64,000 bases of DNA from Actinomarinicola tropica (lineage in GTDB: Bacteria; Actinomycetota; Acidimicrobiia; Acidimicrobiales; SKKL01): assembly GCF_009650215.1 (NCBI RefSeq), contig NZ_CP045851.1, forward strand, positions 1,949,001-2,013,000, given 5' to 3'. The first letter of the stretch is position 1. Every line of letters begins with the position of its first letter. The translations under genes and the position numbers were made by a program. The notes beneath the pieces were generated by a model. It was not told the origin of the DNA. It was given only the letters and a program-made list of their open reading frames with translations, and made no database searches. Positions 22,709 through 49,901 of the stretch are shown here, piece after piece.

Positions 22709-23032
22709 GTGGCGATGTACACGGTGACGCTGACGGACCGGACGATCGAGCAGATCGACGGGGCGGACGCCTACCAGCAGGAGGGGCAGATGACGACGTT
22801 CTTCGCGACGCGCCGTGAGGTCATCGACTCGTGGAGCACGCGCCTGGCGTCGTTCCGGACGAGCGAGATCCTGAGCGTGCGACGGGTGGACGCCGACCTC
22901 GATCAGGGCGCGGGGGCGATCCGCTCGACCCACATCGGCTCGAACACCTCGGCGGGGCGCGCGGCGACCACCGTCTCGAGCAGGCCCTCCGAGGCGAGCA
23001 GGTCACGCACCTCCTCGCACTGCGTGTCGTAG
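22709..23032 (+). CDS. Small conserved protein with 3' antisense overlap
   Basis: The first about 65 residues (starting VAMYTVTLTDRTIEQI, then DAYQQEGQMTTFF, then VIDSWSTRLASFRTSEIL) look like a real small protein. The rest, about 43 codons, is read through the complementary strand of the GT39-like gene. AGGAGG six bases before the GTG decides the start and supports translation. Either the tail is genuine or a frameshift has extended a roughly 65-residue protein. No domain recognised; cytoplasmic. Confidence 0.6.
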   Translation: MAMYTVTLTDRTIEQIDGADAYQQEGQMTTFFATRREVIDSWSTRLASFRTSEILSVRRVDADLDQGAGAIRSTHIGSNTSAGRAATTVSSRPSEASRSRTSSHCVS

Positions 23033-26071: not shown

Positions 26072-26838
26072 AGCTGGACGTCGCGTCGCTCAAGGCGGCG
26101 CTGGTCGACGTCCTCCCCGATCCGCTCGTCTACCGGATCGCCCCGCTCATCTACCGGGGCCAGGAGCCCGAGCTCGCCCGCCTGCGGAGCTTCGTGCCGC
26201 GAGGTCGCAACGCCGTCGACGTCGGCGGCTGGCTCGGCCCCTGGACCCGCGAGCTGTCGCGCTGGTGCGGGCGCGTCGACACCTTCGAGCCCCAGCCCGA
26301 CCTCGCGGCGTTCCTCCGCAAGGTGGTGCCGGCCAACGTCACGGTGCACGAGGTGGCGGTGTCGGACGCCGCCGGTCGCACCCGACTGGTCGTCCCGTCG
26401 TCGCGCCACGGGGAGAACGCTCTGGCGTCGGTGCGTCCCGGTGCAGCCGACGCCGATCCCGACGCCATCGTCCACGAGGTCGACGTCGTCCGCCTCGACG
26501 ACCTCGGGTTCACCGACGTCGGGTTCCTCAAGGTCGACGTCGAGGGCCACGAGCGGGAGGTGCTCGACGGCGCGACCGCGCTCATCGGTCGGGACCGACC
26601 GCGGATCCTGCTCGAGGCCGAGCAGCGGCACCTCGACACGCCGCTCCACGAGCTGTTCGACCACGTCGGCGCGCTGGGCTACCGCGGGTGGTTCCTGCAC
26701 GGTGGCGGCTGGCACGCCCTCGACACGTTCGACGTGGAGCAGCGCCAGACCGCGCACCTCGACGACCTCACCGGGCCGGACTACGTGAACAACTTCCTCT
26801 TCGTCCCCACCGAGGACGAGTTCACCCCGACGACCTGA
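26068..26838 (+). CDS. FkbM-family SAM-dependent methyltransferase
   Basis: 256-residue methyltransferase. NAVDVGGWLGPWTREL is the SAM-binding loop, VDTFEPQPDL the acidic ribose-binding strand, and FLKVDVEGHEREVLDGA the FkbM hallmark. FkbM enzymes methylate sugar hydroxyls in lipopolysaccharide, glycopeptide and polyketide pathways. The GTG start lies in the stop of the flavoprotein gene, so the two are co-translated and probably act on the same glycan. The 3' end overlaps the opposing membrane-protein gene by 17 bp. Confidence 0.88.
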   Translation: MKLDVASLKAALVDVLPDPLVYRIAPLIYRGQEPELARLRSFVPRGRNAVDVGGWLGPWTRELSRWCGRVDTFEPQPDLAAFLRKVVPANVTVHEVAVSDAAGRTRLVVPSSRHGENALASVRPGAADADPDAIVHEVDVVRLDDLGFTDVGFLKVDVEGHEREVLDGATALIGRDRPRILLEAEQRHLDTPLHELFDHVGALGYRGWFLHGGGWHALDTFDVEQRQTAHLDDLTGPDYVNNFLFVPTEDEFTPTT

Positions 26839-28897
26839 GCCGCTCGCACAGGTCCGAGTCCCGCGGCTGCACCTCGACGTCAGGGGTGAGGGTCTGCACC
26901 GGCCCACCCGCGAGCGAGCGGCCGGGTGCGACGCCGTCACGAGGGTGGAAGCGATAGCCCTCGAACGCGAGCCGGTCGTCGACCTGGACGCGGATCTCCA
27001 CGGTGACCGGGTCGAACACCGCCGTCACCGTCGACCGGGCGCGTCGCGGCACCCAGCGTCCGAGGTCGACGTGGCGTCCGTCCGGGTCGTCCCAGACGTA
27101 GCCGATGCGCACCTCGTCCTCGCGCACCTCGGCCACGAGCGCGTTCGCTCCGTCGGCATCGCCGCTGCCGAGCAGCGGCCACAGCTCCCCCGGCTGGGCT
27201 CCCTCCGGCCAGGGCACGTGGAGCGTCCACCCGCCGGCCTCCTCGGTGCGCTCCACGCCTCGCCACCGGTCGCCCTCGCCCCAGTAGACCCCGCGGCAGT
27301 CGTCGAGGGCGACGAGGTCCCCGGCGGTGACGTCGCGAGGCAGCTCCTCGACCCAGCGCACCCGTGGAGCGGTCGCGCCTGGCACCGCCTCGGCCACCGA
27401 CACCTGGTCCGACACCAGCGCACCACGCAGCGCCTCCGACACGTCGGGCGCCTCCTGGCGCTGGTAGAGGAGGCCGAGCGCCCCGTTCGCCGCCACGCCC
27501 CACGCCGCCAGGGCGGCGATCGCCACCGTGGCGACGACCACGGTGCGACGGCCGTGCCGCCCCGCCCGCTCGATCGCGACGTGCACGGCCGGCAGCGTGG
27601 TGACGAGGAGGAACGGGAGGACGTCGGTCGTGTAGCGGTGGGCGACGTAGCCGATCGTGAGCACCCCGAGGGCGCTCGCCGCCGAGCCGACGGCCGGCAG
27701 TGCGAGGCACCGCAGCGGGTGCCCGCGCCGCCAGGCGACGGCGAGCACGCCGAGACCGGCGACCGAGCCCAGCGCGAGCAGGGGCGTGGAGGACGGGAGG
27801 CTCGCGGTCGGGTCCAGGGTGTCGAACGCGACGTCGCCCACGACGTCGACGCCGTCGCGGAAGCCGATGAAGGGGTAGGTCCGACCGAGCGCGACGCCGT
27901 CGGGCCGCAGGTACTGCAGCGCGGTCGTCGGCACGAACTGCGGCCCGAAGAGGCTCCCGTCGTTGGCGTCGAGGACCTCTTGGCGCTCCTCGCTGATCCG
28001 CACGTAGGTCTGGGCCTCGAGCGGCAGGCGGAACGGCTCGCCGAAGCGGGCGAGGTTGACCGCGGCGTAGGAGCCGACGGCGACGGTGCCCGTGACCGCG
28101 AGGAGGGCGACGACCTGGCGCCCGCCACCGGCCAGGCGCCACGGGCGGGTACGCCAGCGGGCCGCACCGAGCGCGACCAGCTCGGCCCCGCCCACGAGGC
28201 CGAGCGCGACGAGGGCGCCGGCGCCGACCGACGCCCGGCTGTGGAGCGCGGCCACGGCGGCCGCCCCCGCGACGCCGAGGGCGGGCAGCGAACCGCCCGC
28301 CAGGTGGCGCACGAGGGCCGCCAGCGACACCAGGGCCCACGCGCTGCCCCACAGCAGCGCCTCGTGGTACACCCAGGCGCGTCCGGCGAGGTACAGCACC
28401 ACCGATCCCGCCACGACGACGCCGGTGGTGGCGCCGGCCACGACGAGGTCACGCCGGTCCACGGCTCGGTCGCCACGCACCGCCCATCGGACCGACCACC
28501 CGAGCGAGGTGGCGGCGCCGGCGAGCACGCACACCGCCCCCACCATCGAGAGCTGCGTGAGCCGACCGTCGAGGCGGTCGGTGATGGCGACCACCGGTAC
28601 GCGGAGCAGCGTGGGGACGATCCCGAAGTAGGTCTGCTCCCGCCCGTCGATCTCGAACGCCTCGATGCCGAGGACGCCGGGGTCGAGGTCCCAACGACCC
28701 TCGAGCCAGCTGCGGGCCTGCGCCTCGTGGAAGTCCGCGGCGCGCGGCTGGGGGGCCAGCAGCTCGAAGGTCCCGGCGGTGAGCAGCCAGCAGAACGGCA
28801 GGAGGGCGGCGAGCAGGCCGACCGCAGCGGCCAGCCGGACCGGCCGGGGGACGGGCGGCGGCCCCGGTGCCGCCTCAGTCGCCGGGACGGGGTCCAC
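26822..28897 (-). CDS. Polytopic GT-C-like membrane protein A (paralogue of the 38.7-40.8 kb gene)
   Basis: 691 residues: about 11 membrane helices (20-455) and a soluble C-terminal domain (about 510-691). FHEAQARSWLEGRWDL follows the first helix with an acidic loop, as in GT-C transferases. The gene is clearly homologous to the 710-residue protein at 38698-40830: AWVYHEALLWG / PWVYHEALVWG, FVPTTALQYLRPD / FIPTTLLQYFRPD, VDDRLAFEGY / LDGRLVFEGH. The C-terminal domain resembles a LamG/concanavalin-like beta-sandwich and may bind the glycan. Start GTG overlaps the upstream GT2-methyltransferase gene by 23 bp. Substrate unknown. Confidence 0.75.
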   Translation of the reverse strand: MDPVPATEAAPGPPPVPRPVRLAAAVGLLAALLPFCWLLTAGTFELLAPQPRAADFHEAQARSWLEGRWDLDPGVLGIEAFEIDGREQTYFGIVPTLLRVPVVAITDRLDGRLTQLSMVGAVCVLAGAATSLGWSVRWAVRGDRAVDRRDLVVAGATTGVVVAGSVVLYLAGRAWVYHEALLWGSAWALVSLAALVRHLAGGSLPALGVAGAAAVAALHSRASVGAGALVALGLVGGAELVALGAARWRTRPWRLAGGGRQVVALLAVTGTVAVGSYAAVNLARFGEPFRLPLEAQTYVRISEERQEVLDANDGSLFGPQFVPTTALQYLRPDGVALGRTYPFIGFRDGVDVVGDVAFDTLDPTASLPSSTPLLALGSVAGLGVLAVAWRRGHPLRCLALPAVGSAASALGVLTIGYVAHRYTTDVLPFLLVTTLPAVHVAIERAGRHGRRTVVVATVAIAALAAWGVAANGALGLLYQRQEAPDVSEALRGALVSDQVSVAEAVPGATAPRVRWVEELPRDVTAGDLVALDDCRGVYWGEGDRWRGVERTEEAGGWTLHVPWPEGAQPGELWPLLGSGDADGANALVAEVREDEVRIGYVWDDPDGRHVDLGRWVPRRARSTVTAVFDPVTVEIRVQVDDRLAFEGYRFHPRDGVAPGRSLAGGPVQTLTPDVEVQPRDSDLCERLRSSG

Positions 28898-30422
28898 CGG
28901 GCGCCCGGCCGACGAGCAGGATCGACAGGCCGACGGGCACGTCGGCGCTGCGGAGCACGCGCCGCTCCGCCGTCGCGATCCAGCCGAGGAGCCGGTTGAC
29001 GTGCGGGTGCACGTAGCTGACCTCCTCCTCGTCGCCGCGCACCAGGCGGCGGATCGGGGTCTTGCGGACGACGGCGGCCAGCGGGGTGAGCCACGAGTGG
29101 AAGTACGTGACCCTCTCCACCTCCACGCCGGCGGCGTCCGCGACGTCGCGCAGGCGCGCTGCGGTGTAGCGACGGCGGTGGCCGAGCACCTCGTCGTGGC
29201 GGCTCCACGCCCACTGGTACGCGGGCACGGTGAGGAGGATCAGCCCTCCGGGACGGACGACCCGGCGGTACTCCCGCAGCGCGGCCACATCGTCGTCGAG
29301 GTGCTCGACCACGTCGAGGCTCGTGAGGACGTCGACCGACCCCGACGCCAGCGGCAGCTCGCCCGCCGATCCGCGGACCACGGCCACGCCGGCCGCCTGT
29401 CGGGAGGACGCGAGGGCGGCCGCGTGTCCGTCGAACTCGACACCGATCACCGAGTCGGCGTGGGCGGTGAGCACGGGTAGCGTGCTCCCCGTTCCGCAGC
29501 CGACGTCGCACGCCACGCCCGAGCCGTCATGGCGGCGGCCCAGCTCCAGCTCCAGGAGCCGCTGCTTGGCGCGGAACCACCAGTGGTCCCGCTCGAGGCG
29601 GGACATGATCTCGAACTTCTCGACCGCCATCTGGCCCCCCGCTCCGGGGGCCGGAACCGAGGGCCCGGCACGGCGGATCGCCCGGCGCAGCGCGATCACG
29701 TCGCGGAGCATCGCCGCCCCGTCGCGGAGGGGTCGGACCCGGCTGGCGTCCACGTGCGACCACTCCAGCGGCATCCGGACGATGCGCATGCCGTCGCGCT
29801 CGGCGAGGGCGAGGACCTCGACGTCGAACGCGAAGCCCTCGATGGTGACGGCGCTGAAGATCGTGTGGGCGGCGTCGGCCGTGAAGCCCTTCAGGCCGCA
29901 CTGCGTGTCGAGCTCGGTCGTCAGGCGGAAGGTCCGCAGCACGAGGTTGAACGCCCGCCCTGTGGCCACCCGGTGCCCCGGCTGCGAGTCGGCGATCGTG
30001 CTGTCGGGGTGCGCGCGGCTCGCGAAGACGACGTCGGCCTGCTCGGCGACCAACGTGTCGAAGCAGCGGATGATGTCGTCGACGCCTGCGGAGAGGTCGG
30101 CGTCGGCGAAGACCCGGAGGTGGCCTCGCGCGGCGAGCATCCCGGCGCGCACCGCGGCGCCCTTCCCCCGGTTGAGCGCGGAGCGGATGACCCGGGCGTT
30201 GGCCAGACCGAGCTCGGCGATCTGCTTCTCGGCCAGCTCCGCGGTGCCGTCGGCGCTCCCGTCGTCGACGAGCAGCAGCTCGTGGCCCTCACCGGCGAGC
30301 GGCGAGCCGGCGAGCAGGCGCAGCGTGCCGCCGATCCGCTCCGCCTCGTCGAACATCGGGATCACCAACGAGCGCCGGACCTCGTCCGGATGCGTCGTCG
30401 GAGGTGGAACCATCGGCGGCAT
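28875..30422 (-). CDS. Fused GT2 (polyprenyl-phosphate sugar synthase-like) and SAM methyltransferase
   Basis: 515-residue two-domain protein. Residues about 15-240 are a GT2 of the ALG5/DPG-synthase type: VIPMFDEAERI, LLVDDGSADGTAEL, NRGKGAAVRAGML, VFADADLSAG, DTQCGLKGF. Residues about 270-510 are a class I methyltransferase: ACDVGCGTGSTLPVL, LTSLDVVEHLDDDVA. A proline/glycine linker joins them. The first domain would make a polyprenyl-phosphate sugar; the second would methylate a substrate, perhaps that sugar, though this is inference. It is upstream of and overlaps membrane protein A. A second, unrelated GT2-methyltransferase fusion occurs at 40838-42292. Confidence 0.85.
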   Translation of the reverse strand: MPPMVPPPTTHPDEVRRSLVIPMFDEAERIGGTLRLLAGSPLAGEGHELLLVDDGSADGTAELAEKQIAELGLANARVIRSALNRGKGAAVRAGMLAARGHLRVFADADLSAGVDDIIRCFDTLVAEQADVVFASRAHPDSTIADSQPGHRVATGRAFNLVLRTFRLTTELDTQCGLKGFTADAAHTIFSAVTIEGFAFDVEVLALAERDGMRIVRMPLEWSHVDASRVRPLRDGAAMLRDVIALRRAIRRAGPSVPAPGAGGQMAVEKFEIMSRLERDHWWFRAKQRLLELELGRRHDGSGVACDVGCGTGSTLPVLTAHADSVIGVEFDGHAAALASSRQAAGVAVVRGSAGELPLASGSVDVLTSLDVVEHLDDDVAALREYRRVVRPGGLILLTVPAYQWAWSRHDEVLGHRRRYTAARLRDVADAAGVEVERVTYFHSWLTPLAAVVRKTPIRRLVRGDEEEVSYVHPHVNRLLGWIATAERRVLRSADVPVGLSILLVGRAPGGPRPGD

Positions 30423-30550: not shown

Positions 30551-31762
30551 GTGGCTCACCCGCTCGTGCCCGACCAGACGAACCCCACCCGCAGCCGCGA
30601 CGAGACCCTCCGGGACATGGCGGCGACCGCCGACGCGGCAGGGCTGCGACGCATCCACATCGCGACGTTCCGCGATCGCGACCACCCCGAGGCCGGCGGC
30701 TCCGAGGAGCACGCGACGCAGGTGGCCCACCACCTCCACCTGGCCGGCCTGGAGATCGTCCACCACACCGGCGCCGTGCCGGGCGGGCCGGCCGAGCTCG
30801 ATCGCGACGGCGTCCGGGTCGTGCGACGCGGCGGACGCCTCGGCGTCTTCGCCACCACCGTCGTCGACGAGCTGAGCGGACGCCTCGGCCCGCGTGACGG
30901 GCTCGTCGAGGTCTTCCACGGCGTCCCGTTCTTCTCCCCGCTCTGGGCCCGCGGGCCCCGCGTGGCGCTGATCCACCACGTCCACCTGGGCACGTGGCAC
31001 CACCTCCTGCCCTTCCCCGGCGACCGGGTCGGCGACGCGATCGAGCGCCACGTGGTGCCGCTGCTGTACCGGCGGGCCACCGTGGTCACCGCGGCGGCGT
31101 CGGCCCGGGACGAGATCGTCGACGAGCTGCGGCTCCCCGCCCGCAACATCTCCGTGGTCCCCCACGGGATCGACCCGCGCTTCCGTCCCGGCGGCAGCCG
31201 GAGCGCACGCCCCCGGGTCGTGGCCGTGGCGCGGATGATGCCGCAGAAGGGGCTCGCCGACCTGGTGCCGATCCTGGCCGCGGTCCGCCGACGGGTCCCC
31301 GACCTCGAGGCCGTGATCGTCGGCGACGGACCCCAGCGACCGGAGATCGAGCAGCTCCGGCGCGACCACGACGCCGAGGACTGGCTTGAGCTCGCCGGCC
31401 GCGTCGACGACGACGAGCTGGTCGTCCAGTACCAGCAGGCGTGGGTCGCCGTGTCGGCGTCGCACCGGGAGGGCTTCGGCCTCACGCTCACCGAGGCCGC
31501 GGCATGTGGGACGCCGGCGGTCGCGACCCGCATCCCGGGCCACGTGGACGCCATCGCCGAAGGTCGCAGCGGGCGCCTCGCCGAGGGCCCCGACGAGATG
31601 GCCGACGCCCTCGTGTCGATCCTCACCGACCCCGCCGAGCGCGCCGCCCTCAGCCGGGGGGCCCTCGAGTGGGCGTCGTCGTTCACGTGGGCCCACAGCG
31701 CGGCAGGCGTCCTCGACGCCCTCGTGGCCGACGCACGTCGACGCCGCACCCGGCGCCGCTGA
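30551..31762 (+). CDS. GT4-family glycosyltransferase
   Basis: 403-residue GT-B retaining glycosyltransferase, using a nucleotide sugar on the cytoplasmic side. GGSEEHATQVAHHL is the N-terminal acceptor loop; VVAVARMMPQKGLADL, VIVGDGPQ and HREGFGLTLTEAAACGTPAVAT are the C-terminal donor-site motifs, with the EX7E pair of GT4. GTG start; the N-terminal 35 residues before the fold are poorly conserved-looking, so a later start is possible. The AftD-like gene follows after 5 bp. Confidence 0.88.
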   Translation: MAHPLVPDQTNPTRSRDETLRDMAATADAAGLRRIHIATFRDRDHPEAGGSEEHATQVAHHLHLAGLEIVHHTGAVPGGPAELDRDGVRVVRRGGRLGVFATTVVDELSGRLGPRDGLVEVFHGVPFFSPLWARGPRVALIHHVHLGTWHHLLPFPGDRVGDAIERHVVPLLYRRATVVTAAASARDEIVDELRLPARNISVVPHGIDPRFRPGGSRSARPRVVAVARMMPQKGLADLVPILAAVRRRVPDLEAVIVGDGPQRPEIEQLRRDHDAEDWLELAGRVDDDELVVQYQQAWVAVSASHREGFGLTLTEAAACGTPAVATRIPGHVDAIAEGRSGRLAEGPDEMADALVSILTDPAERAALSRGALEWASSFTWAHSAAGVLDALVADARRRRTRRR

Positions 31763-31767: not shown

Positions 31768-34700
31768 TTGGAGACCGTCGACCGGACCGTCCGTCGAGCG
31801 TGGCGCGCACGCGGCACCCCGTACGCGGCGCTCGCGCTCCTGTCCTACGTGCCGCTGCTGCTCGCCCGCCCGGGCGTGTTGAACGCCGACACCAAGGGCT
31901 ACCTGTACCTCGATCCCCTCGGCCTGATGGAGCGCGCCCGCTCCCTGTGGGACCCCGTCGTCGGCGGCGGGACGGTCACCCACCAGACGATCGGCTACCT
32001 GTGGCCGATGGGCCCGTTCTACGCCCTGACCGAGGCCGTCGGGCTGCCCGACTGGGTGGCCCAGCGCCTGTGGGTCGGCTCGATCTCGTTCGCCGCGGCG
32101 GCCGGCGCCCTGCACCTCTGGAACCACCTCCTCGGTCGTCGCGGCGTCAACGTCCTCGGCGCCCTCGCCTACGGCCTGTCCCCGTACGTCCTCGGCCACG
32201 TCACCGGCCAGTCGGCGCTCCTCCTCCCCTTCGCCGCCTTCCCGTGGCTCGTCGTGTTCATGGACCGGGCCTGCACCGAGAAGGGGTGGCGCTGGCCGGC
32301 GGCCTACGCCCTCGTCATCGCGACCTGCGGGTCGCTGAACGGCAGCTCGGTGTTCTTCGTCGTGGTCGGCTCGGCGCTCTGGGCGCCCCTGCGTGCCCGC
32401 TCCACGGCCGGCGTCACCCTCCGCGACGCGTTCGTGGCCCTCGTCCGCACCGGCGTGCTCACCCTCGCCACCCAGCTGTGGTGGCTCGTCGGCTACGCCG
32501 TCGGCGGGCGGTACGGGCTCCCCCTGCTCGCCACCACCGAGACGCTCGAGGTGACGTCGGCGACCACCGCGTCGACCGAGGTGCTGCGGGGGCTCGGGTA
32601 CTGGTTCTTCTACGGCACCGACGTCACCGGACCGTGGCTCGAGGGCATCGCCCCGCCGTACATGGAGCACGTCGGCCTGCTCGCCGTCGGCTTCGTCGTG
32701 CCGATCGTGGCCCTGGTCGCCGGGGGCGCCACGGCTTGGGCGCACCGCACGTACTTCGCCACCCTGGCCGCGCTCGGGCTCGTGCTGTCGGTGGGCGCCT
32801 ACTCCGCGGCAGGTCGATCCCCGTTCGGCGCGGCGTTCGCCGCAGGCGCCGACGCGTCGGACCTGCTCTTCAGCCTCCGCAACACCCAGCGCGCCACGCC
32901 GCTGCTCCTCCTCGGGCTGGCCGGCCTGCTCGTCGCCGGCCTCCACGTGCTCGCCGAGCACCGGCCCCGTGGTCGCGTCGTGGTCCACGTCGCGCTCGCC
33001 GTCGCCGTGGTGGCGTCGATCCCCCACCACTGGACGTCGGGCTACATCGCCGAGCGCTTCCACCGGCCCGACGAGCTGCCTGCCCACTGGGTCGATGCCG
33101 CCGACCACCTCGCCGACGGGGAGGGAAGGATCCTCGAGCTGCCCGGCATCGACTTCGCCGCCTACCGCTGGGGCAACACGCTCGACCCGATCACGCCGGG
33201 GCTGGTCGACCGCTCCGTCCTCGCCCGTGAGCTGGTGCCGATGGGATCACCGCCGGGCGTCGACCTGCTGGGGGCGCTCGACCGGTCGATCCAGGAGGGC
33301 ACCTTCGAGCCCGAGGCGCTGGCTCCCGTGGCCCGCCTGCTCGGCGCGTCGGACGTGCTCGTCCGCAGCGACCTGGAGTACGAGCGGTACCGGACCGTCC
33401 GCCCGCGCGTGTTCTGGGACGCGCTGACGCCCACGCCGCCAGGCCTCGGCCCACCGACCACCTTCGGCGACGACCAGGTCAACCGGGCCGACCCCTCCCA
33501 GCCGATGATCGACGAGGTCGAGCTCGGCATCGCACCCGACGCGGCGGAGCCGCCCGCCCTCGCGGTCTTCCCGGTCGAGGACCCCCACGACCTCGTGCGC
33601 GCCGAGCCGACCGCCGGCGGCACGATCCTCGCGGGGGACGGCGAGGGCGTCCTCGCCACGGCCGCGGCCGGCCTCCTCTCCTCCGGACCGCTGCGGTACG
33701 CGGCCGAGGTCACGGACGACCCGGCGGCTCTCGATCTCGCCCTCTCACCCGGCACGCAGGTGGTCCTGACCGACACCAACCGTCTCCGCGGCCACCGCTG
33801 GTACTCGCTGCGCGAGAACCTCGGCGCCGTCGAGGTGCCGGGCCAGCCCGCGCTCGAGGACGATCCCGGCGACGCGCGCATCCCCCCGGTGACCGATCCG
33901 GACCCGTCCTCCCAGACCGTCGCCGAGCACCGGGGTGCGGCGCGCGTGTGGGCCACCGCGTACGGCAACCCGATCACGATGACGCCCGAGAACCGGGCGG
34001 TGCTGGCGTTCGACGGCGACGAGCGCACGGCGTGGACGGTCGAGACCGGCCAGTGGGACGACCCGGTCGTCCTCGGCATCGAGCTCGACCAGGCCGTCGC
34101 CGTCCCGGCCGTCCACCTGCGCCAGGCCGTCGGCCGTCCGGGCATGCGCGCGGTGGAGGAGGTCGAGATCCGACTCGACGGCGGACGTGCCCTGCGGGTG
34201 GCGCTCGACGAGCGCTCGCTCGAGCCCGGGGGCCAGCCGGTGCCGCTCGACGGCGACCCCGTCACCACGGTCGAGGTGGAGGTGCTCCGGTCGGAGCCCG
34301 GCGACGGCCCGACCGGCTTCAGCGAGGTGCGCATCCCCGACGTGCGGGTCGAGGAGGTCCTGCACCTCCCCACCGACCTGGTCGACGCGGTCGGCCCCGG
34401 GCTCGTCGACCACCCGCTCGCGATCGTCCTGACCCGCCACCGGGTCAACCCGGCCGAGGTGGTCCGCAGCGACCCCGAGCTGGCGATGAGCCGGGCGTTC
34501 ACCCTCCCCGCGGCCGGGACGTTCGACGTCTCCGGCACGGCGCGCCTCTCCGCGACCGCACCGGAGCCGACGATCGATCGCACCCTCGGGATCGCCGGCG
34601 CCGCGGACGGCGGCGTCGACGCGACCTCGACGGCCCGACTCGCGGGCGACCTCCGCCACCGCGCCGTGTCCGCCGTCGACGACGACCTCACGACGGCGTG

Positions 34701-36051
34701 GCAGACCACGTTCGGCGACCCGCGCGGCGCCACGATCGAGGTCGCCTCCCCCACCACCTTCACGCTCGACGCCCTGACGCTGGACGTCGTCGCCGACGGG
34801 CGCCACAGCCTCCCTCGCACCCTCGAGGTGCGCGTCGACGGGCAGGGCCCGGTCGTCGTCGAGGTCCCGCCCGTCGCCGAGTCGACCGAGCCCGGAGCGA
34901 CGACCCAGGTGGTGGTGCCGCTCGGGACCACCGTCGAGGGGTCGACCCTGCGCCTGACGGTGGTCGAGATCGACGAGCGCTCGACCCGCGACTGGTACAC
35001 GGGTACGCCGGTCACGCTGCCGGTGGGTCTGGCGGAGATCGAGGTCCCCGGTGCCGAGGTCACCGATCCCGTCCTCGACGAGTCCTGCCGGGCGGACCTG
35101 CTGTCGATCGACGGCACCCCGGTCCCCCTCCGGGTCGTCGGCACCGCCGCCGATGCCGTCGACCGCGCCGGGCTCGACGTCGAGCTGTGCGGCGACCCTG
35201 TCACGCTGGCCGCTGGCGAGCACGTCGTGCGCACGGCGCCGGGTGCGGACACGGCGATCGACCTCGACCGGGTGGTGCTCGAGCTCGCCGGTCCCGCGGC
35301 GTCCGCAGCGGTCCCCGCCCCGGATGCGCCGGCCACGGTCGAGTGGACGCGCCCGTCGGCCACCGCGATCGACGCCACGGTGGTGCCCGAGGGCGACGAG
35401 CCGTTCTGGCTCGTGGTGTCGGAGAGCTGGAACGAGGGGTGGACCGCGACGGCGGACGGCGAGGACCTCGGCGAGCCGGCGATCCACGACGCCTTCGGCA
35501 TGGGGTGGGTCATCGAGCCCGGCGACGGGCCGATCGACGTCGAGCTGCGGTGGGCCCCCCAGCGCACGGTGGACATCGGGCTCGCGGCCTCGGCCCTCGC
35601 CGCCGTCGCGTGCCTCGCGCTCGTCGTGTTCGGTCGGCGGCGGCCCCAGCCGCCACGAGCGGCGCCGACTCTCGTGCGCGACGCGACCTGGTCGCCGCTC
35701 GCGGCACCGGCCGCCCTGGTGGCCGGCGCTCTCCTGGTCCACCCGCTGGCCGGCCTGGTGCTGGGCCTCGTCGTCGGCGCGGGCGTCCTCTGGCCGCGGG
35801 CGCGGCCGGCGGTGCGCCTCCTGCCCGCCATCGCCGTGGCCCTCGCCGCGGCCTACGTCGTCGTCTCGCAGCTCCGGTGGGGCCACCCCGCCGACTTCCG
35901 CTGGCCGGAGCACTTCCTCCGGGTGCACCACCTCGCGCTCGCCGGGCCGGTCCTCCTGGCGGTGCTCGCCTGGTTCGACGCGCCCGCTCAGTCCGGCAGC
36001 CAGGTCGAGCCGTCGGAGCCCTCGACGCGGCCCGACGAGGGCAGCGAGTAG
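31768..36051 (+). CDS. aftD: AftD-like alpha-(1->3)-arabinofuranosyltransferase
   Basis: 1427 residues, the size of mycobacterial AftD. GVLNADTKGYLYLDPLGLM and TIGYLWPMGPFYALTE match the AftD/DUF3367 N-terminal loops (acidic residues of the GT-C site). About ten helices span residues 25-480. A soluble region follows with two discoidin/F5-8C-like segments (AVLAFDGDERTAWTVETG near 740; AVSAVDDDLTTAWQTTFGD near 965). The C-terminus has a beta domain, three to four helices, and an acidic tail. AftD adds branching arabinofuranose in mycobacterial arabinan. TTG is the only reasonable start after the GT4 stop. Overlaps the acyltransferase 3' end by 64 bp. Confidence 0.85.
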   Translation: METVDRTVRRAWRARGTPYAALALLSYVPLLLARPGVLNADTKGYLYLDPLGLMERARSLWDPVVGGGTVTHQTIGYLWPMGPFYALTEAVGLPDWVAQRLWVGSISFAAAAGALHLWNHLLGRRGVNVLGALAYGLSPYVLGHVTGQSALLLPFAAFPWLVVFMDRACTEKGWRWPAAYALVIATCGSLNGSSVFFVVVGSALWAPLRARSTAGVTLRDAFVALVRTGVLTLATQLWWLVGYAVGGRYGLPLLATTETLEVTSATTASTEVLRGLGYWFFYGTDVTGPWLEGIAPPYMEHVGLLAVGFVVPIVALVAGGATAWAHRTYFATLAALGLVLSVGAYSAAGRSPFGAAFAAGADASDLLFSLRNTQRATPLLLLGLAGLLVAGLHVLAEHRPRGRVVVHVALAVAVVASIPHHWTSGYIAERFHRPDELPAHWVDAADHLADGEGRILELPGIDFAAYRWGNTLDPITPGLVDRSVLARELVPMGSPPGVDLLGALDRSIQEGTFEPEALAPVARLLGASDVLVRSDLEYERYRTVRPRVFWDALTPTPPGLGPPTTFGDDQVNRADPSQPMIDEVELGIAPDAAEPPALAVFPVEDPHDLVRAEPTAGGTILAGDGEGVLATAAAGLLSSGPLRYAAEVTDDPAALDLALSPGTQVVLTDTNRLRGHRWYSLRENLGAVEVPGQPALEDDPGDARIPPVTDPDPSSQTVAEHRGAARVWATAYGNPITMTPENRAVLAFDGDERTAWTVETGQWDDPVVLGIELDQAVAVPAVHLRQAVGRPGMRAVEEVEIRLDGGRALRVALDERSLEPGGQPVPLDGDPVTTVEVEVLRSEPGDGPTGFSEVRIPDVRVEEVLHLPTDLVDAVGPGLVDHPLAIVLTRHRVNPAEVVRSDPELAMSRAFTLPAAGTFDVSGTARLSATAPEPTIDRTLGIAGAADGGVDATSTARLAGDLRHRAVSAVDDDLTTAWQTTFGDPRGATIEVASPTTFTLDALTLDVVADGRHSLPRTLEVRVDGQGPVVVEVPPVAESTEPGATTQVVVPLGTTVEGSTLRLTVVEIDERSTRDWYTGTPVTLPVGLAEIEVPGAEVTDPVLDESCRADLLSIDGTPVPLRVVGTAADAVDRAGLDVELCGDPVTLAAGEHVVRTAPGADTAIDLDRVVLELAGPAASAAVPAPDAPATVEWTRPSATAIDATVVPEGDEPFWLVVSESWNEGWTATADGEDLGEPAIHDAFGMGWVIEPGDGPIDVELRWAPQRTVDIGLAASALAAVACLALVVFGRRRPQPPRAAPTLVRDATWSPLAAPAALVAGALLVHPLAGLVLGLVVGAGVLWPRARPAVRLLPAIAVALAAAYVVVSQLRWGHPADFRWPEHFLRVHHLALAGPVLLAVLAWFDAPAQSGSQVEPSEPSTRPDEGSE

Positions 36052-38021
36052 CCCGCGAGTCGCAGCAGCTCCGGGCCCAGCCAGCGCGACACCGACAGGG
36101 CACCGTCGTCGTCGAAGTGGACGCCGTCGGGGCGCAGGTCGGTGTCGAACACGCCGCCGGGCCGGTGCTCCATGTGCCCGGCGAGATCGACGACGCCGAC
36201 GTCCTCGTGATCGGCGACGACGCCGGCCACCAGGTCGTTGACGTGGTCGAGCCGCCGGGGCGTGTCCTCGTCCTCGGCGCTCGGATCGACGCCCGGGTAG
36301 TTCGCCAGCGTGAAGTGGGGGTACGTGAGCCAGGCCACCGTCGCCCCGCCCGCCGTCAGCACCTCGGCGGCGAGGTCGACGTCCCGGCGCAGCGCGGCGT
36401 CGAACGTCGGGTCGCCCGCCCACCGCCACTCGTCGCCCGGCTCGAGGCGGTGGTCGCCGGCGTCCCACGCGCCGACGAGCACGACCACCAGGTCGGGCCG
36501 GAAGGTCTCGATCCGATCGGCGTAGAGGGTCGGCCAGCTCGTGCAGCCCTCGGGGGTCGCGCCCGCGCCGCCCACCGAGCGCACCTCGACGCTGCGGACG
36601 ATGCCGCATCCCGGCGTCCCGGTGTTCCAGACCACGAAGGCCCCCGTCTCGGCCGCCCAGGCGTCGAGCCCGAAGCCGAGCGAGCGCGACACCGAGTCGC
36701 CCACGACGAGGAGGCGCAGCGGCCGGTCGAGGATCGCCGGCACCTCGGGGCCGCCCTCCGCCGCCGCCGGTGCGACGCTGGCCGGCGGCGCCTCGAACGC
36801 CTCCGGCGGGACGCTCGGCGGGGGCGGTGCGCTGGTCTCGGCCCACCGGGGCGGCGCCACCGCCGTCGACCCGACGACGAGGGCCCCGACGACGACGAGA
36901 GCCGGCAGGGCGGCCAGCGGCAGCAGCCGCGGGACGGCCAGCTGCGGCAACCGGCGGATCGGCTGCTCGATCCAGCGGTACGAGACGAGGGCGGCGACCA
37001 GCGTGGCGCCGAGCCGCAGGGCGAGCAGCGGCGGCCCCTCCAGGCCGGTGCGGCCCTCGTCGAGCCAGAGGAACAGGGGCCAGTGGTAGAGGTAGACGCC
37101 GTAGGAGATCCGGCCGAGCCCGGCGAGCGGCGACCACGAGAGCAGCCGCGCCGGGCCCACGCCGCGCACCACGGCGAGCACGACCACCAGGGTCAGGAAC
37201 GGGTGCAGCGGGAGGGCGAACCGGTAGACCCAGAGGTCGGCGGCGGTCGCGGTCGCCCACATCGCCCCCATGGCGGCGATCGCCGGCCAGCTCGCCAGGC
37301 CGAGGAGCCGTGTGCCGCGCTCCGAGAGCGCGGAGCGCACCGACAGACCGCCGAGGACCGCCGCGGCGGCCGCGCCCCAGAGGATCTCGGCCGCTCGGGT
37401 GTGGGTGCCGTAGTAGGCCTGCGTGAGGTGCCCCGCCCCCGCGATCGCGACCATCAGCAGCGTCGACACCACCGCGAGCAGCGCCAGGACCGATCCGACC
37501 GCCTCCCGGCGGCGGGCCAGGTGCAGCACGCCGACGACGACGAGCGGCAGGAGCAGGTAGGCCTGCTCCTCGATGGCGAGGCTCCAGAAGTGGAGGACCG
37601 GGCTCGGCTCGGCGAAGAGGTCGGCGTAGGAGCGCTCGTCGAGGACGAACCGCCAGTTCGCGACCTGGGCCAGGGCGGCGAGGATGTCGCCCCGCAGATC
37701 GAGGCGACCCACGGGGGCGCTGACCGTGAGGCCGAAGGCGGCGATGCCCACGAGGCAGACCAGCGATGCCGGCAGGAGGCGCCGCACGCGTCGACCCCAG
37801 AAGGCGCGCAGGTCGATGCGGTGGTGCTGATCCCACTCGTCGAGCAGGAGGCCCGCGATCAGGAAGCCGGAGAGGGTGAAGAAGGCCGAGACGCCGAGGA
37901 ACCCGCCGGGCATCCAGGTGAGCCCGGCGTGGAACGCCAGGACGCCGAGGACGGCGACGCCACGCAGGCCGTCGAGCGCTGCGACGCGCCCGGCTGCCCT
38001 AGATTCGGCGCCATGAACCAC
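35988..38021 (-). CDS. Acyltransferase-3 with C-terminal SGNH domain (OafA-like)
   Basis: 677 residues. The N-terminal AT3 domain (about 10-345, ten helices) has ALDGLRGVAVLGVLAFHAG, with the R...H motif, and HFWSLAIEEQAYLLLP. After a Pro/Ala-rich linker, a periplasmic SGNH domain has LLVVGDSVSRSLG (block I Ser) and DGVHFDDDGA (block V Asp-His). In OafA-type proteins the membrane domain brings acyl groups across and the SGNH domain O-acylates a glycan. The GTG start is chosen for GAGGAGG eight bases upstream, which lies inside the divergent hydrolase gene. Overlaps AftD by 64 bp. Confidence 0.88.
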   Translation of the reverse strand: MVHGAESRAAGRVAALDGLRGVAVLGVLAFHAGLTWMPGGFLGVSAFFTLSGFLIAGLLLDEWDQHHRIDLRAFWGRRVRRLLPASLVCLVGIAAFGLTVSAPVGRLDLRGDILAALAQVANWRFVLDERSYADLFAEPSPVLHFWSLAIEEQAYLLLPLVVVGVLHLARRREAVGSVLALLAVVSTLLMVAIAGAGHLTQAYYGTHTRAAEILWGAAAAAVLGGLSVRSALSERGTRLLGLASWPAIAAMGAMWATATAADLWVYRFALPLHPFLTLVVVLAVVRGVGPARLLSWSPLAGLGRISYGVYLYHWPLFLWLDEGRTGLEGPPLLALRLGATLVAALVSYRWIEQPIRRLPQLAVPRLLPLAALPALVVVGALVVGSTAVAPPRWAETSAPPPPSVPPEAFEAPPASVAPAAAEGGPEVPAILDRPLRLLVVGDSVSRSLGFGLDAWAAETGAFVVWNTGTPGCGIVRSVEVRSVGGAGATPEGCTSWPTLYADRIETFRPDLVVVLVGAWDAGDHRLEPGDEWRWAGDPTFDAALRRDVDLAAEVLTAGGATVAWLTYPHFTLANYPGVDPSAEDEDTPRRLDHVNDLVAGVVADHEDVGVVDLAGHMEHRPGGVFDTDLRPDGVHFDDDGALSVSRWLGPELLRLAGYSLPSSGRVEGSDGSTWLPD

Positions 38022-38693
38022 CCTCCCGTCCTCCTCGTTCACGGCTTCGCCACCTCGGCCGAGCGTACCTGGCGTGAACCGGGATGGATCGACCTCATCA
38101 CCGAGGCGGGACGCACGGTTCTGGCCCCCGACCTGCTCGGCCACGGCGATGCTCCGAAGCCGCACGAGGTCGACGCCTACGACGCCGTCGAGGACCTCGT
38201 CGCCGACGTCCTGCCCGACGAGCCGGTCGACGCCATCGGCTACTCGATGGGCGCCCGCGTCGTGCTCACCCTGGCCGCCCGGTCGCCGGAGCGCTTCCGC
38301 CGCATCGTCGTCGCCGGCATCGGCGCCAACGTCTTCCGCTCCGAGGCGAGCACCGCTGTGGCCGACGCCGTCGAGGGCCGCTACGACCCCGACAACCGGG
38401 TCCTCGCCCACTTCCACGAGCTCGGGACCACGCCCGGGAACGACCCGCTCGCGCTGGCGGCGTTCATGCGACGCCCCTCGCCGGTGCTGCGGCCCGAGGA
38501 CCTGGCCCGCGTGAGCTGCCCCGTCCTCGTCGTGCTCGGCGAGCAGGACTTCGTCTGGCCGGCGGACGACCTCGTCGCCGCCCTGCCCGACGCCCGGTTC
38601 CTGCCGCTCCCCAAGGTCGACCACTTCGGGACGCCGAAGGACTTCACGTTCATCGACGAGGCCCTCGGCTTCCTCGACGCCCGGCCGTTCTAG
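38013..38693 (+). CDS. Alpha/beta-hydrolase
   Basis: 226-residue alpha/beta-hydrolase. LLVHGFATSAERTW is the HG oxyanion region, AIGYSMGARVV the nucleophile elbow, VLGEQDFVWP the acid strand and KVDHFGTPKDF contributes the catalytic His. Cytoplasmic; substrate unknown. ATG overlaps the start of the divergent acyltransferase by 9 bp, so initiation of the two genes may interfere. The second membrane paralogue begins 4 bp after its stop. Confidence 0.87.
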   Translation: MNHPPVLLVHGFATSAERTWREPGWIDLITEAGRTVLAPDLLGHGDAPKPHEVDAYDAVEDLVADVLPDEPVDAIGYSMGARVVLTLAARSPERFRRIVVAGIGANVFRSEASTAVADAVEGRYDPDNRVLAHFHELGTTPGNDPLALAAFMRRPSPVLRPEDLARVSCPVLVVLGEQDFVWPADDLVAALPDARFLPLPKVDHFGTPKDFTFIDEALGFLDARPF

Positions 38694-38697
38694 CCCT

Positions 38698-40830
38698 GTG
38701 GCGGGCGAGGACCGTCGCCGCCACGGACGGGCGGCCTGGATCGGCACCGCCCTCGGCACGCTCCTCGTCGCCTGGGTCGCCACCGCCGGCTCCTGGGACC
38801 TGCTGCGCTGGGAGCCGCTGAGCGACTTCTACGACGCCCAGGCGGCGGCGTGGCTCGACGGCCGGTGGGACATCGGCATCGACACGCTGGGGGTCGAGTC
38901 GTTCTTCCGCTTCGACGAGGAGGTCGCGGCCCTCGTCGAGCGGGGCTGGCCGATCGACGACGACCCGCTCGTCGCCGACGAGATCCTGCGCAGCCAGCCC
39001 GCGTACATGTACCAGGGGCCCGTACCCGCGCTCCTCCGCGTCCCGACGGCGGCGCTGGCGCCCGACCTGAGCGGTCGGCTCACGACGCTGTCGATCCTCG
39101 CCGCCACCCTGCTCGCCGGCTGGACCAGCGGTCGGATCCTGTGGGAGGCCCGTCGCCGCCTCCGTCCCGACGTCGAGGTCGGTCGTGGCGAGCAGATCGG
39201 GGTGGCGGCGTGGTGTGCGCTCGTCACGGGGGGCTCGAGCCTGGTGTACCTGGCCGCGAAGCCGTGGGTGTACCACGAGGCCCTCGTGTGGGGGGTGGCG
39301 CTCTGCCTGGCCTCGCTGCTCGCCATGGTGCGCTACGTCGACGCGCCCACGACGCGCCGGGTGGTCGTCCTCGGGCTCCTCGTCACCGCCTGCCTGTCGA
39401 CGCGGGCCTCGATCGGTCTCGGTCCGCTGCTCGGGGTGGCGGTCCTCGGCGCCCGCGAGCTCGTCGCCGTGGCGCGACGTCGCGCCGACGGTCGCGACGT
39501 CTGGCCGCCGATCACCCGCGCCGCGGGGCTCGCGGGCGTCGGGGTCGCCGCCCTCGGCACCTACGCCGCGGTCAGCTACGTGAAGTTCCGGACGCTGTTC
39601 AGCGTGCCGTTCGAGACCCAGCTCCACACGATCATCGACCCGACCCGCCAGGAGTTCCTCGCGGAGAACGGCGGGTTCTTCTCCCTCCGCTTCATCCCGA
39701 CGACGCTCCTGCAGTACTTCCGACCCGACGCCTTCCGCCCCACCTCGCTCCTGCCGTGGATCGACTTCGCCCCGGCGCCGGGCCCCATCCTCCTCGACGC
39801 CCGGTTCGACGTGTTCGACCGGACGTCGAGCGTCCCCTCGGCGCTGCCGGCCTTCGTCCTCCTCGGGGTCCTCGCCCTGGTCGCGCTCGGGCGGGGTCGG
39901 ATCGAGTGGTCAGCGCTGCGAGCCTTCCGGGTCCCGCTGGTGGCGGCGGCCGGCTCGGGCCTCGCGGTCCTCGCGTTCGGCTACATCGCCAACCGGTACG
40001 TCGCCGACTTCATGCCCCTGGTGATCGTCGCCGCGGCCATCGGCGTGCAGGCGCTGCTGGCGTGGCGGCCGTCGCGCCCGTGGATCCACCGCACCGCCGT
40101 GTCCGTCGTCGTCCTCGCCGGCGTGTTCGGCGCCTGGCTCAACGTGTCCCACGGGGTGCTCGCCCAGCGGCTCTACGGCCTCACGACCGACGAGGAGCGC
40201 ACCGCGGCGTTCATCGCCACGCAGTCGCGGGTCGAGTCGCTGCTCGGCGGCGAGGAGCTGCCGTCACGCGTGCAGCGCGGCGAGCAGCTGCCGACCGGAT
40301 CGCCCGGGGACCTGTTCGTCCTCGGCAGCTGCGACGCCCTCTACCTCCACGACGGCAACCCGCCGAACACGATCCGGCGCCACTCCTGGATCCCCGTCGA
40401 GCGCACCGAGCGGGCGGGCCGGTACGAGCTGGCCATCCGGTTCGACGCGCTACGCCCGGGCACCTCGTCGCCGATCGTCAGCGGCGAGGACGGCGACAGC
40501 TCGGCGCTACTGGTCGTCGAGGCGACCGACGACGGACACGTCGTCGTCGAGTACTCGGGGGCCGGCCTGCCACGGCGCAGCGCCCCGATCGAGGTCGATC
40601 CCGGGCACACCTACGACGCCGTGCTCGTCGCCGACCCCCGCCTGTCCGAGGTGTCCCTCACCCTCGACGGCCGACTCGTCTTCGAGGGGCACCTCGCCTA
40701 CGACGGGCCGCTCACGTTCGGGCGCGACGTCGTGGGCGGCGCCGACGTGGCGACCTTCGCCGGGTCCATCGAGCGGCGGCCGGGGACCCGCGCCGAGCTG
40801 TGCGCCGACCTGCTGGAGCGGGCGGGCTGA
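38698..40830 (+). CDS. Polytopic GT-C-like membrane protein B (paralogue of the 26.8-28.9 kb gene)
   Basis: 710 residues, with the same order of features as membrane protein A: acidic first loop FYDAQAAAWLDGRWDIG, YQGPVPALLRVP, PWVYHEALVWGVALCL, FIPTTLLQYFRPD, GYIANRYVADFMP, then a soluble C-terminal domain with LFVLGSCDALYL and LTLDGRLVFEGHLAY. It has an extra roughly 25-residue loop near residues 75-100 relative to A. A GT-C transferase with a carbohydrate-binding tail is the best reading; the donor and acceptor are not known. GTG start. Confidence 0.75.
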   Translation: MAGEDRRRHGRAAWIGTALGTLLVAWVATAGSWDLLRWEPLSDFYDAQAAAWLDGRWDIGIDTLGVESFFRFDEEVAALVERGWPIDDDPLVADEILRSQPAYMYQGPVPALLRVPTAALAPDLSGRLTTLSILAATLLAGWTSGRILWEARRRLRPDVEVGRGEQIGVAAWCALVTGGSSLVYLAAKPWVYHEALVWGVALCLASLLAMVRYVDAPTTRRVVVLGLLVTACLSTRASIGLGPLLGVAVLGARELVAVARRRADGRDVWPPITRAAGLAGVGVAALGTYAAVSYVKFRTLFSVPFETQLHTIIDPTRQEFLAENGGFFSLRFIPTTLLQYFRPDAFRPTSLLPWIDFAPAPGPILLDARFDVFDRTSSVPSALPAFVLLGVLALVALGRGRIEWSALRAFRVPLVAAAGSGLAVLAFGYIANRYVADFMPLVIVAAAIGVQALLAWRPSRPWIHRTAVSVVVLAGVFGAWLNVSHGVLAQRLYGLTTDEERTAAFIATQSRVESLLGGEELPSRVQRGEQLPTGSPGDLFVLGSCDALYLHDGNPPNTIRRHSWIPVERTERAGRYELAIRFDALRPGTSSPIVSGEDGDSSALLVVEATDDGHVVVEYSGAGLPRRSAPIEVDPGHTYDAVLVADPRLSEVSLTLDGRLVFEGHLAYDGPLTFGRDVVGGADVATFAGSIERRPGTRAELCADLLERAG

Positions 40831-40837: not shown

Positions 40838-42292
40838 TCAGCCCTGGTGCACCATCGGGTCGGGACGGAGCGCGAACAGGTACTGGTAGGCGAACAGGTT
40901 CGGCCAGGCGCGCACGCCGCGCCGGTCGACCCAGCGGACGAGGCGGGCCACGGGTGAGCCCGCGACACCACCACCGTCGCCGCCCCTGTCGACCACCTCG
41001 AGGGGCAGCCCGGTCGCGCTCTCCCAGTCGGCGATGTAGCCGGCCCGCCGGGCGACCCGCATGAAGCTGCGGTGGGTGAAGAACCGCAGGTGCCCCCGGT
41101 CGAGGATGCCGCGGCGCTCGTAGTCGAAGCGGCCGAGGACCGTGCGCAGGCGCGGGTACCAGTGGGCGAAGTTCGGGATGGAGGCGAGCAGGGTGCCGTC
41201 GGGCTTCAGGACGGCGAGGATCGAGCGGAGCATGGCGTCGGGGTCCCGGACGTGCTCGATGACGTCGGCGGCGAGGACGACGTCGAACCCGGTGCCCGCC
41301 TCCGCGGGGATGCCGTCGTCGAGGTCGCCCCGGACGAACGCGTCGACGCGCGTGCCGACACCGGGCATCTCGACCACGTCGACGCCGGTGACGTGGTGGC
41401 CGAGCCGCCGGAGCCGGTCGGCCAGCGCGCCGTCCGAGCAGCCGAGGTCGAGCACCTTGCTCGGTGGCCGGTGGGCCATCCACTCGAGGAGCTGGCGGTG
41501 CGAGCTGTCGAGCGAGTCCTTCGTCTCGTAGGCGTCGCTGGCGAAGGCCATCTCGCCGCTGCCGAAGCCGATCTTGTGCAGCCGGTACTTCACGACGTCG
41601 CGCATCACGTCGCCGGCGTACCGCACGCCGTCGACGTAGCAGATCTCGTCCCCGTAGTAGGTGGGGATCGGGACCTCGTGGATCCGCTTCCCGGCCTCGT
41701 GCAGCTGCACGATGATCTGCGTGTCGAAGTTGAAGCCGTCGTCGTTGAGCTCGAAGGGCACGTCGTCGAGCGCCGCGACCCGGTAGGCCCGGTAGCCCGA
41801 GTGCCACTCGCTCAGGGACTCGCCGACGATCGCGTTCTGGGCCTGGGTGAGGATCCGGTTGCCGACGTACTTGTAGAGGGGCATGCCGCCACGCCGGGCG
41901 GCGCCGGGGATCATCATCCGGGACCCGAAGACGGCGTCGGCCTCGCCGGACTCGATGGGCGCGACCATCTCGGGCAGCAGCTCCGGGGCGTACTGGCCGT
42001 CGCCGTGGAGGAGCACCACGATGTCGAGGCCCTGCTCGATCGCCCACCGGTAGCCGGCCTTCTGGTTGCCGCCGTAGCCGAGGTTGCGCGGCCGCCGGAT
42101 CACGGTGATCGGCAGCTCCGAGTTCGCCTCCTGGTACTCGAGCCCCCGCTCGAAGGTCGCGTCGGCGCTGTAGTCGTCCGCGATGAGCACGGTGTCGATG
42201 CGGGAGCGGAAGCCCGAGGGGATGCGATCGAGGACCGCGGCGAGCGTCGCCTCGGCGTTGTACGCGACGACGAGGATCCCGATCCGGTGCAT
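40838..42292 (-). CDS. Fused GT2 (DPM1-like) and SAM methyltransferase, second copy type
   Basis: 484 residues. The GT2 domain (about 1-235) reads ILVVAYNAEATL, VLIADDYSADAT, NLGYGGNQKAGYRWA, LLHGDGQYAPELL (DxD-like DGQ), and EWHSGYRAYR, close to DPM1-type enzymes but of a different subclass from the other fusion. The methyltransferase (about 265-420) has VLDLGCSDGALADRL and VVLAADVIEHVRDPDAML. It converges on membrane protein B with 7 bp between stops, so each membrane paralogue is adjacent to a fusion. The reaction is unproven; a polyprenyl-phosphate sugar plus methylation is plausible. Confidence 0.83.
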   Translation of the reverse strand: MHRIGILVVAYNAEATLAAVLDRIPSGFRSRIDTVLIADDYSADATFERGLEYQEANSELPITVIRRPRNLGYGGNQKAGYRWAIEQGLDIVVLLHGDGQYAPELLPEMVAPIESGEADAVFGSRMMIPGAARRGGMPLYKYVGNRILTQAQNAIVGESLSEWHSGYRAYRVAALDDVPFELNDDGFNFDTQIIVQLHEAGKRIHEVPIPTYYGDEICYVDGVRYAGDVMRDVVKYRLHKIGFGSGEMAFASDAYETKDSLDSSHRQLLEWMAHRPPSKVLDLGCSDGALADRLRRLGHHVTGVDVVEMPGVGTRVDAFVRGDLDDGIPAEAGTGFDVVLAADVIEHVRDPDAMLRSILAVLKPDGTLLASIPNFAHWYPRLRTVLGRFDYERRGILDRGHLRFFTHRSFMRVARRAGYIADWESATGLPLEVVDRGGDGGGVAGSPVARLVRWVDRRGVRAWPNLFAYQYLFALRPDPMVHQG

Positions 42293-45837: not shown

Positions 45838-46436
45838 GTGGACGCGGACGCCCGGACCAGCGCGTGCTGGACGAGCTCGATGAGCGCCACCTTCGTCGAG
45901 TTGCGGTCCCGCGCGTCGCAGGTGGTCATCGGCACGTCCTCCGGCACGGCGAGCGCCTCACGGAGCTCGTCGAGCGAGTGGCTGGGCTCGGCGCCGAAGA
46001 TGTTGTGCGCGACGACGAAGGGCACGTCGCGGCCCTCGAAGTAGTCGACCGCCGGGAACGAGTCCTCCAGGCGGTTGCTGTCGACCAGCACGACCGCGCC
46101 GATGGCGCCACGCACGAGGTCGTCCCACATGAAGTGGAAGCGGGGCTGGCCCGGCGTGCCGAACAGGTAGAGGACGAGGTCGGTCCCGAGCGAGATGCGA
46201 CCGAAGTCCATGGCCACGGTCGTCGACGTCTTGCCGGTCGCCTTCGACAGGTCGTCGATGCCCTCGCTGTGCGAGGTCATCGCCGCTTCGGTCGTCAGCG
46301 GGGCGATCTCGGAGACCGACCCGACGAACGTGGTCTTCCCGACGCCGAAGCCGCCGGCGACGATGATCTTGACGGGCATCGGTGCATCGGCCGACGCGGC
46401 CGGCTGCGCCGGCGCCTCAGAGTGCCTGAAGGCCAT
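45834..46436 (-). CDS. cvnD: Conservon small GTPase (CvnD-like)
   Basis: 200-residue Ras-like/MglA-like ATP/GTP-binding protein. IIVAGGFGVGKTTFVGSV is the P-loop (near residues 24-41), LYLFGTPGQPRFHFMW the atypical G3 region used by CvnD proteins in place of DxxGQ, and VVAHNIFGAEP the NKxD-equivalent, here weak. Conservons pass signals from the CvnA kinase through CvnB/C to CvnD. ATG start; overlaps the DUF742 gene by 20 bp. The GT2 begins inside its stop codon. Confidence 0.9.
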   Translation of the reverse strand: MAFRHSEAPAQPAASADAPMPVKIIVAGGFGVGKTTFVGSVSEIAPLTTEAAMTSHSEGIDDLSKATGKTSTTVAMDFGRISLGTDLVLYLFGTPGQPRFHFMWDDLVRGAIGAVVLVDSNRLEDSFPAVDYFEGRDVPFVVAHNIFGAEPSHSLDELREALAVPEDVPMTTCDARDRNSTKVALIELVQHALVRASAST

Positions 46437-47204: not shown

Positions 47205-47215
47205 CGACCTTCCTC

Positions 47216-49888: not shown

Positions 49889-49901
49889 TAGCGTGCGCCA
49901 G

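Follow-up and report, generated by a model that had tools for sequence, protein, structure and literature searches.

The question raised by this locus is which sugar would be transferred, and from which lipid carrier, by an AftD-family protein whose genome lacks the genes that supply decaprenyl-phosphate-arabinose (DPA). The protein is encoded at positions 31768-36051 of a 64,000-nucleotide stretch of the Actinomarinicola tropica genome (contig NZ_CP045851.1, positions 1,949,001 to 2,013,000; the window), and was described in an initial annotation, made from the DNA letters alone, as a full-length AftD-like arabinofuranosyltransferase of an organism that may make an arabinan-like wall polymer. 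As tuberculosis drug targets, the Aft enzymes are under study together with DprE1, UbiA and Emb, and the wall associated with them is thought to be special to the Mycobacteriales and their kin. A mostly aquatic actinobacterial order carrying several such enzymes, partly in one island, provides an outgroup for the origin of arabinan, and a family that has AftD but no donor genes provides a natural test of the sugars that AftD can transfer. In the literature searched, no paper connected the Acidimicrobiia with arabinofuranosyltransferases, and no title dealt with the subject. The reading favored here, with moderate confidence, is that the protein is an AftD-fold transferase of polyprenyl-phosphate sugars, located in a surface-glycan island, belonging to an old Acidimicrobiales branch and using a donor other than DPA.

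Membership of the product in the AftD family (PF11847, GT53) was confirmed, with arabinofuranose transfer as a putative activity. The GT-C_AftD profile (PF11847) covered residues 30-694 with an E value of 2.3e-87 (293.9 bits against a cut-off of 26), and CBM_AftD (PF24607) covered residues 730-841 (38.6 bits against 27). The only solved structures related by sequence at an E value of 0.01 were those of mycobacterial AftD, 6w98 and 6wbx (E 3.5e-35). An AlphaFold model of residues 1-1200, built from a 36-row alignment, had a mean predicted local distance difference test score (pLDDT) of 89.8 and was superposed on 6w98 over 1029 residues (Z score 35.9, root mean square deviation (rmsd) 4.1, 23% identity), so that the whole AftD layout is present, beyond the GT-C domain alone. 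As first claimed, the overall size agrees with that of AftD (6w98, 6wbx, 6wby). Both discoidin-like modules of the initial annotation were also recovered, the first as a clear CBM32-like domain and the second, at about residues 945-1095, with less certainty, PF00754 matching residues 965-1067 below its threshold (16.4 bits against 28.2) and one structural match, 8ayr_B, covering both modules. Residues D41, N191, W239, E258 and R371 and nine others were invariant in the 36-row alignment; D41 sits after the first helix of the model, and the acidic residue found in the first periplasmic loop of GT-CA enzymes is present. The start codon is probably the TTG at 31768, 5 nt past the stop of the upstream GT4 gene. 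This codon, earlier held to be the sole possible start, remains the best fit, but in-frame GTG codons at 31669 and 31687 are alternatives, and no clear ribosome-binding site was seen in the start region.

Neither the DPA donor pathway, consisting of decaprenylphosphoryl-5-phosphoribose (DPPR) synthase and DprE1, nor the arabinosyltransferases for priming and polymerisation, AftA and Emb, both taken as companions of a functional AftD, was found in A. tropica; the absence of the donor genes is an outcome that the initial annotation had itself named as contradicting its proposal. The genome is a single contig of 3,715,454 bases with 98.84% completeness. The family to which it belongs (f1) was represented by four genomes of two genera (A. 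tropica, G000; G431; G445; G446), all of which carry AftD, but none of which has a DprE1 above the NF053785 cut-off of 500 bits (best score 37 bits in A. tropica and 65.4 in the family). Each of the four contains exactly two UbiA-family (PF01040) proteins, which in the two genomes classified with NCBIfam, A. tropica and G431, are heme O synthase and MenA, and a third UbiA-type protein, which would be a candidate DPPR synthase, is present in none of them. The only A. tropica region with a PF04030 match (C1:1645250-1645888, one protein) was considered and set aside as a relative of alditol/lactone oxidases, not DprE1. An assembly gap was likewise rejected as the cause of the missing donor genes, given the single contig and the agreement of three relatives. 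Of 60 genomes 3 carry AftA, and of 44 genomes 2 have an Emb above its cut-off; neither occurs in any genome of the order, A. tropica included.

That these searches do detect the donor pathway was indicated by an internal control. The wall cluster of genome G392 supplied a mycobacterial DprE1 and its DPPR synthase as queries for 60 genomes, and the two agreed in all 60 (33 with both, 27 with neither). One relative's protein of each kind was tested against curated models, with DprE1 scoring 601 bits (cut-off 500) and decaprenyl-phosphate phosphoribosyltransferase 374 bits (cut-off 207). In family f2, inferred to hold Ilumatobacter coccineum, UbiA, DprE1 and DprE2 are encoded beside AftD, the DprE1 gene lying 2.8-21.3 kb from it in all six genomes with both on one contig, and 100-492 kb from it in a further three genomes of the class. 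The island of one f2 genome (G188) contains UbiA, DprE1, DprE2, GT4, two relatives of the AftB-like proteins, a GT2-methyltransferase and AftD, which is the A. tropica gene set apart from the donor genes. These donor genes support pentofuranose or arabinan synthesis in the relatives, which, although outside the Mycobacteriales, probably supply AftD-type enzymes with a lipid-linked pentofuranose. The suggestion of an arabinan-like polymer thus fits relatives that have DPPR synthase and DprE1, but not A. tropica and its family, which have neither. Six further genomes of the order (G080, G241, G274, G349, G366 and G390) have DprE1 and DPPR synthase with no AftD match, so that the donor must be used by a different enzyme in these six. 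DprE1 and DPPR synthase were both missing from 14 of 41 AftD-positive genomes, 9 of which are at least 95% complete, and AftD without donor genes therefore extends beyond the family of A. tropica. Among the genomes without donor genes, G214, G085 and G307 are listed as 100% complete; their AftD is of the Mycobacteriales-like type, with scores intermediate between those of Mycobacteriaceae-like and of Acidimicrobiia proteins. As for wall sugars, strain Hal317, which was compared with Iamiaceae type strains, is reported to contain rhamnose, ribose, mannose and galactose and no arabinose (PMC12263773); its genome is unplaced among those compared, and the observation decides nothing for A. tropica.

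A phylum-wide sample of 396 genomes gave PF11847 in 60, and the domain occurs in 21 of the 29 genomes sampled from the same order, A. tropica not counted, which makes an AftD relative outside the Mycobacteriales ordinary for this order; several genomes carry two copies. For phylogenetic analysis 55 frames were matched, of which 53 met the length rule and 51 were left once duplicates had been removed. In the resulting tree, a quick version in which several forks within the Acidimicrobiia are weak, the Acidimicrobiia proteins grouped in a clade separate from the Mycobacteriales-type proteins. The initial annotation, which had proposed a phylogeny of this kind, was right in placing a full-length AftD relative outside the Mycobacteriales. 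The A. tropica copy, on a long branch, sits in the Acidimicrobiia clade, and horizontal gain from Mycobacteriales was therefore rejected. Two records titled Thermoanaerobacterales and Bifidobacterium breve (L022, L023) contain AftD relatives inside the same clade, and their titles are probably wrong. JAENWR010000094.1 (Acidimicrobiia metagenome-assembled genome 5_8_m_bin22, from the genus of A. tropica) gave matches identical to those of G445 contig 66.

By this account, the enzyme would act outside the membrane, moving the sugar of a polyprenyl-phosphate donor onto a surface glycan held by the discoidin-like modules, with D41, by analogy with GT-CA enzymes, as the presumed catalytic acid. In most AftD-bearing relatives the donor can be DPA made via UbiA, DprE1 and DprE2; with that pathway absent from A. 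tropica and its family, a different polyprenyl-phosphate sugar would be the most likely donor there, perhaps a product of the two GT2-methyltransferase fusions of the island, whose GT2 halves resemble dolichol-phosphate-mannose (DPM) synthases. The naming of these fusions as the source is a first guess, at best evenly balanced. Family, fold, module layout, synteny and the lack of a UbiA-type DPPR synthase and of DprE1 are observed in this analysis, whereas the transfer reaction, the alternative donor and what the island makes are proposals. The catalytic domain itself was compared with six Mycobacteriales-type rows, in which 95 columns are invariant, 53 of them retained in A. tropica. A. tropica and its G446 orthologue have 7 changes in common at 74 otherwise conserved GT-C columns, as against 0 to 4 for the nine other pairs with more than 50% identity. 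Five of the seven are no more than 5 sequence positions away from one of the invariant residues N191, W239, E258 and R371. One of these five, S372N, also occurs in a G431 copy, in a comparison whose group labelled DPA+ includes five named contigs that entered without a donor-gene test. As sequence changes, they would fit, weakly, a shifted active site.

Several observations weigh against this reading. The seven common changes are few and may reflect drift on a long branch, and the placement of the A. tropica copy has weak support (f1 clade, 0.72). None of the GT2 proteins reaches a curated cut-off, leaving the proposed donor enzyme a candidate: the fusion upstream of AftD scored 62 bits with PpgS NF058614, far under the cut-off of 370, its GT2 half resembling ArnC, GpgS and DPM synthase structures, and the downstream fusion scored 73.7 bits with AglJ (cut-off 325). 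AftD and the donor genes remain associated across the 60 genomes, the donor genes being present in 27 of 41 AftD-positive and 6 of 19 AftD-negative genomes (Fisher p 0.024, uncorrected for phylogeny); for the order alone, the counts were 20 of 23 and 6 of 8 (p 0.58). Finally, A. tropica keeps 34 of the 36 columns that are invariant in the six Mycobacteriales-type rows and also reach 90% agreement or more in the Acidimicrobiia, and the active site may therefore still suit arabinofuranose. It was accordingly considered whether the protein is a true arabinofuranosyltransferase supplied with DPA by enzymes that are not homologues of UbiA or DprE1, as would also agree with the match of the AftD, AftB-like and GT4 genes to the islands of donor-gene-bearing relatives. 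This is unlikely, however, since none of the 60 genomes has one of UbiA (DPPR synthase) and DprE1 without the other, and AftA and Emb are missing as well; moreover, we know of no such alternative route.

A second alternative concerns the flavoprotein that the initial annotation had placed next to AftD and likened to UDP-galactopyranose mutase (UGM). It belongs to the same island but is not adjacent, ending 5.7 kb upstream with the GT4 gene and two reverse-strand genes in between. It fails the bacterial UGM model TIGR00031 (34.9 bits against 303.75), but its nearest solved relatives are eukaryotic UGMs, so that the term UGM-like is fair: residues 12-467 align with residues 9-459 of 4dsg (E 2.4e-25), giving homology to a solved UGM along the whole chain. 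Two Arg and two Tyr that we take to be UGM catalytic residues appear aligned in it. Were this enzyme to supply a furanose, AftD might extend a galactofuranose or other hexofuranose glycan from a lipid-linked furanose, which would agree with those eukaryotic relatives and with the retention of the flavoprotein in the island at 6 of 33 other loci (84% identity in G446). Its score under the bacterial cut-off and the failure to identify any polyprenyl-phosphate-galactofuranose synthase make this improbable. Slightly less probable still is a decaying AftD remnant left after loss of the donor genes: G445 has only a fragment of one copy, at a contig end, and the A. tropica branch is long, but the frames are intact and full-length in A. 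tropica, in G446 (about 62% identical to it, with a conserved neighborhood) and twice in G431, and the absence of donor genes from all four genomes of two genera makes their loss old.

The use of another polyprenyl-phosphate sugar in A. tropica can be joined to the findings in its relatives in a wider picture, which is held tentatively. AftD would not be an arabinan enzyme by origin, its family comprising general polyprenyl-phosphate-sugar polymerases across actinobacteria outside the Mycobacteriales; in the Acidimicrobiales a UbiA-DprE1-DprE2 cassette, together with AftB-fold enzymes that Pfam does not cover, would build a pentofuranose or arabinan glycan peculiar to the order; and one family would have dropped the donor and re-tooled AftD for another lipid-linked sugar.

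The features of the AftD protein and of the surrounding island are collected in Table 1. At 11 of 34 loci, A. tropica included, the gene immediately preceding AftD is a GT4 gene; several of the loci are incomplete. For the two GT-C-like membrane proteins, no match was obtained in Pfam or NCBIfam, nor in a sequence search of the PDB with a profile of both, and relatives carry homologues of them near AftD. The model of the one downstream of AftD was closest to donor-analogue-bound AftB, 9dlh (Z score 20.4, 366 residues aligned, rmsd 3.8, 12% identity), with oligosaccharyltransferases scoring within 1 of this match, and contains a galectin/LamG-like C-terminal module. The PMT-like gene is conserved in G284 and G446. 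Farther downstream (45834-49996, reverse strand) a nitrate-sensor-type histidine kinase and a Roadblock/LC7 protein are encoded near a GTPase-like frame, and a DUF742-like frame lies between these genes, the whole resembling a conservon-type cluster; similar kinase, Roadblock and GTPase gene kinds adjoin the AftD island in G446 and G431 (L161, L138). A phage search found none, and Rfam gave no match within the window.

Table 1. Positions in the window of the AftD-family gene, its parts and the neighboring island genes.
Feature	Position	Strand	Basis or remark
PMT-like membrane glycosyltransferase	22903..24444	-	weak PF13231 match, 4.6e-4, 20.9 bits (cut-off 26.1)
UGM-like flavoprotein, PRK07208 type	24548..26071	+	NF005548, 808.9 bits (cut-off 389)
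Membrane protein, presumed GT-C	26822..28897	-	homologue of 38698-40830 by alignment
GT2-methyltransferase fusion	28875..30422	-	GT2 half resembles polyprenyl-phosphate-sugar synthases
GT4 glycosyltransferase	30551..31762	+	PF00534, 2.1e-30; ends 5 nt before AftD start
AftD-family GT-C glycosyltransferase, 1427 aa	31768..36051	+	PF11847; 6w98 by sequence and fold; TTG start most likely
GT-C catalytic domain (residues 30-694)	31855..33849	+	Pfam
Invariant D41, first periplasmic loop, presumed catalytic acid	31888-31890	+	alignment; role by analogy with GT-CA enzymes
First discoidin/CBM32-like module (residues 723-858)	33934..34341	+	PF24607; CBM32 structures at Z about 15
Second discoidin-like module (about residues 945-1095), less certain	34600..35052	+	sub-threshold PF00754; beta-sandwich in model
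C-terminal transmembrane segments (residues about 1270-1407)	35575..35988	+	hydropathy
Acyltransferase-3 with SGNH domain	35988..38783	-	PF01757, 1.1e-23; start uncertain, called frame overlaps AftD end
Membrane protein, GT-C fold closest to AftB	38698..40830	+	model pLDDT 72.2
GT2-methyltransferase fusion	40838..42292	-	GT2 half like DPM synthase, 5mlz, E 2e-12

Among known systems, eukaryotic UGM (4dsg) is matched by the island flavoprotein along 456 residues, whereas the flavoprotein belongs to the uncharacterised PRK07208 family. The three-component pentofuranose systems with GT136 enzymes, as in the Citrobacter O antigen, likewise combine a GT-C domain with a carbohydrate-binding module and a lipid-linked sugar outside the membrane, but they require a UbiA-type polyprenyl-phosphoribose synthase (PMC11127046), which is absent in A. 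tropica. Mycobacterial and corynebacterial AftD (GT53; 6w98, 6wbx, 6wby) have in common with the A. tropica protein the GT-C domain, the invariant first-loop Asp, the discoidin/CBM modules, the C-terminal transmembrane segments and the overall size; the A. tropica copy differs in its 23% identity and separate deep branch, and its genome in the lack of DprE1, DPPR synthase, AftA and Emb. In Corynebacterium glutamicum AftD is an alpha-1,5 arabinofuranosyltransferase (PMC6034362), and the mycobacterial enzyme is reported to bind an acyl carrier protein on its cytoplasmic face (PMC12041299). In GT-CA enzymes the tip of the first juxtamembrane helix bears a functional acidic residue, thought in inverting arabinosyltransferases to be the general base (PMC12041299). 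Whereas most of the other Acidimicrobiales genomes with AftD (inferred to be Ilumatobacter, Iamia and Rhabdothermincola) hold UbiA and DprE1, and family f1 has neither a DPPR-type UbiA nor DprE1, the AftD proteins of these relatives stand in the same clade as that of A. tropica, are full-length, have island genes in common with it and are 33-44% identical to it.

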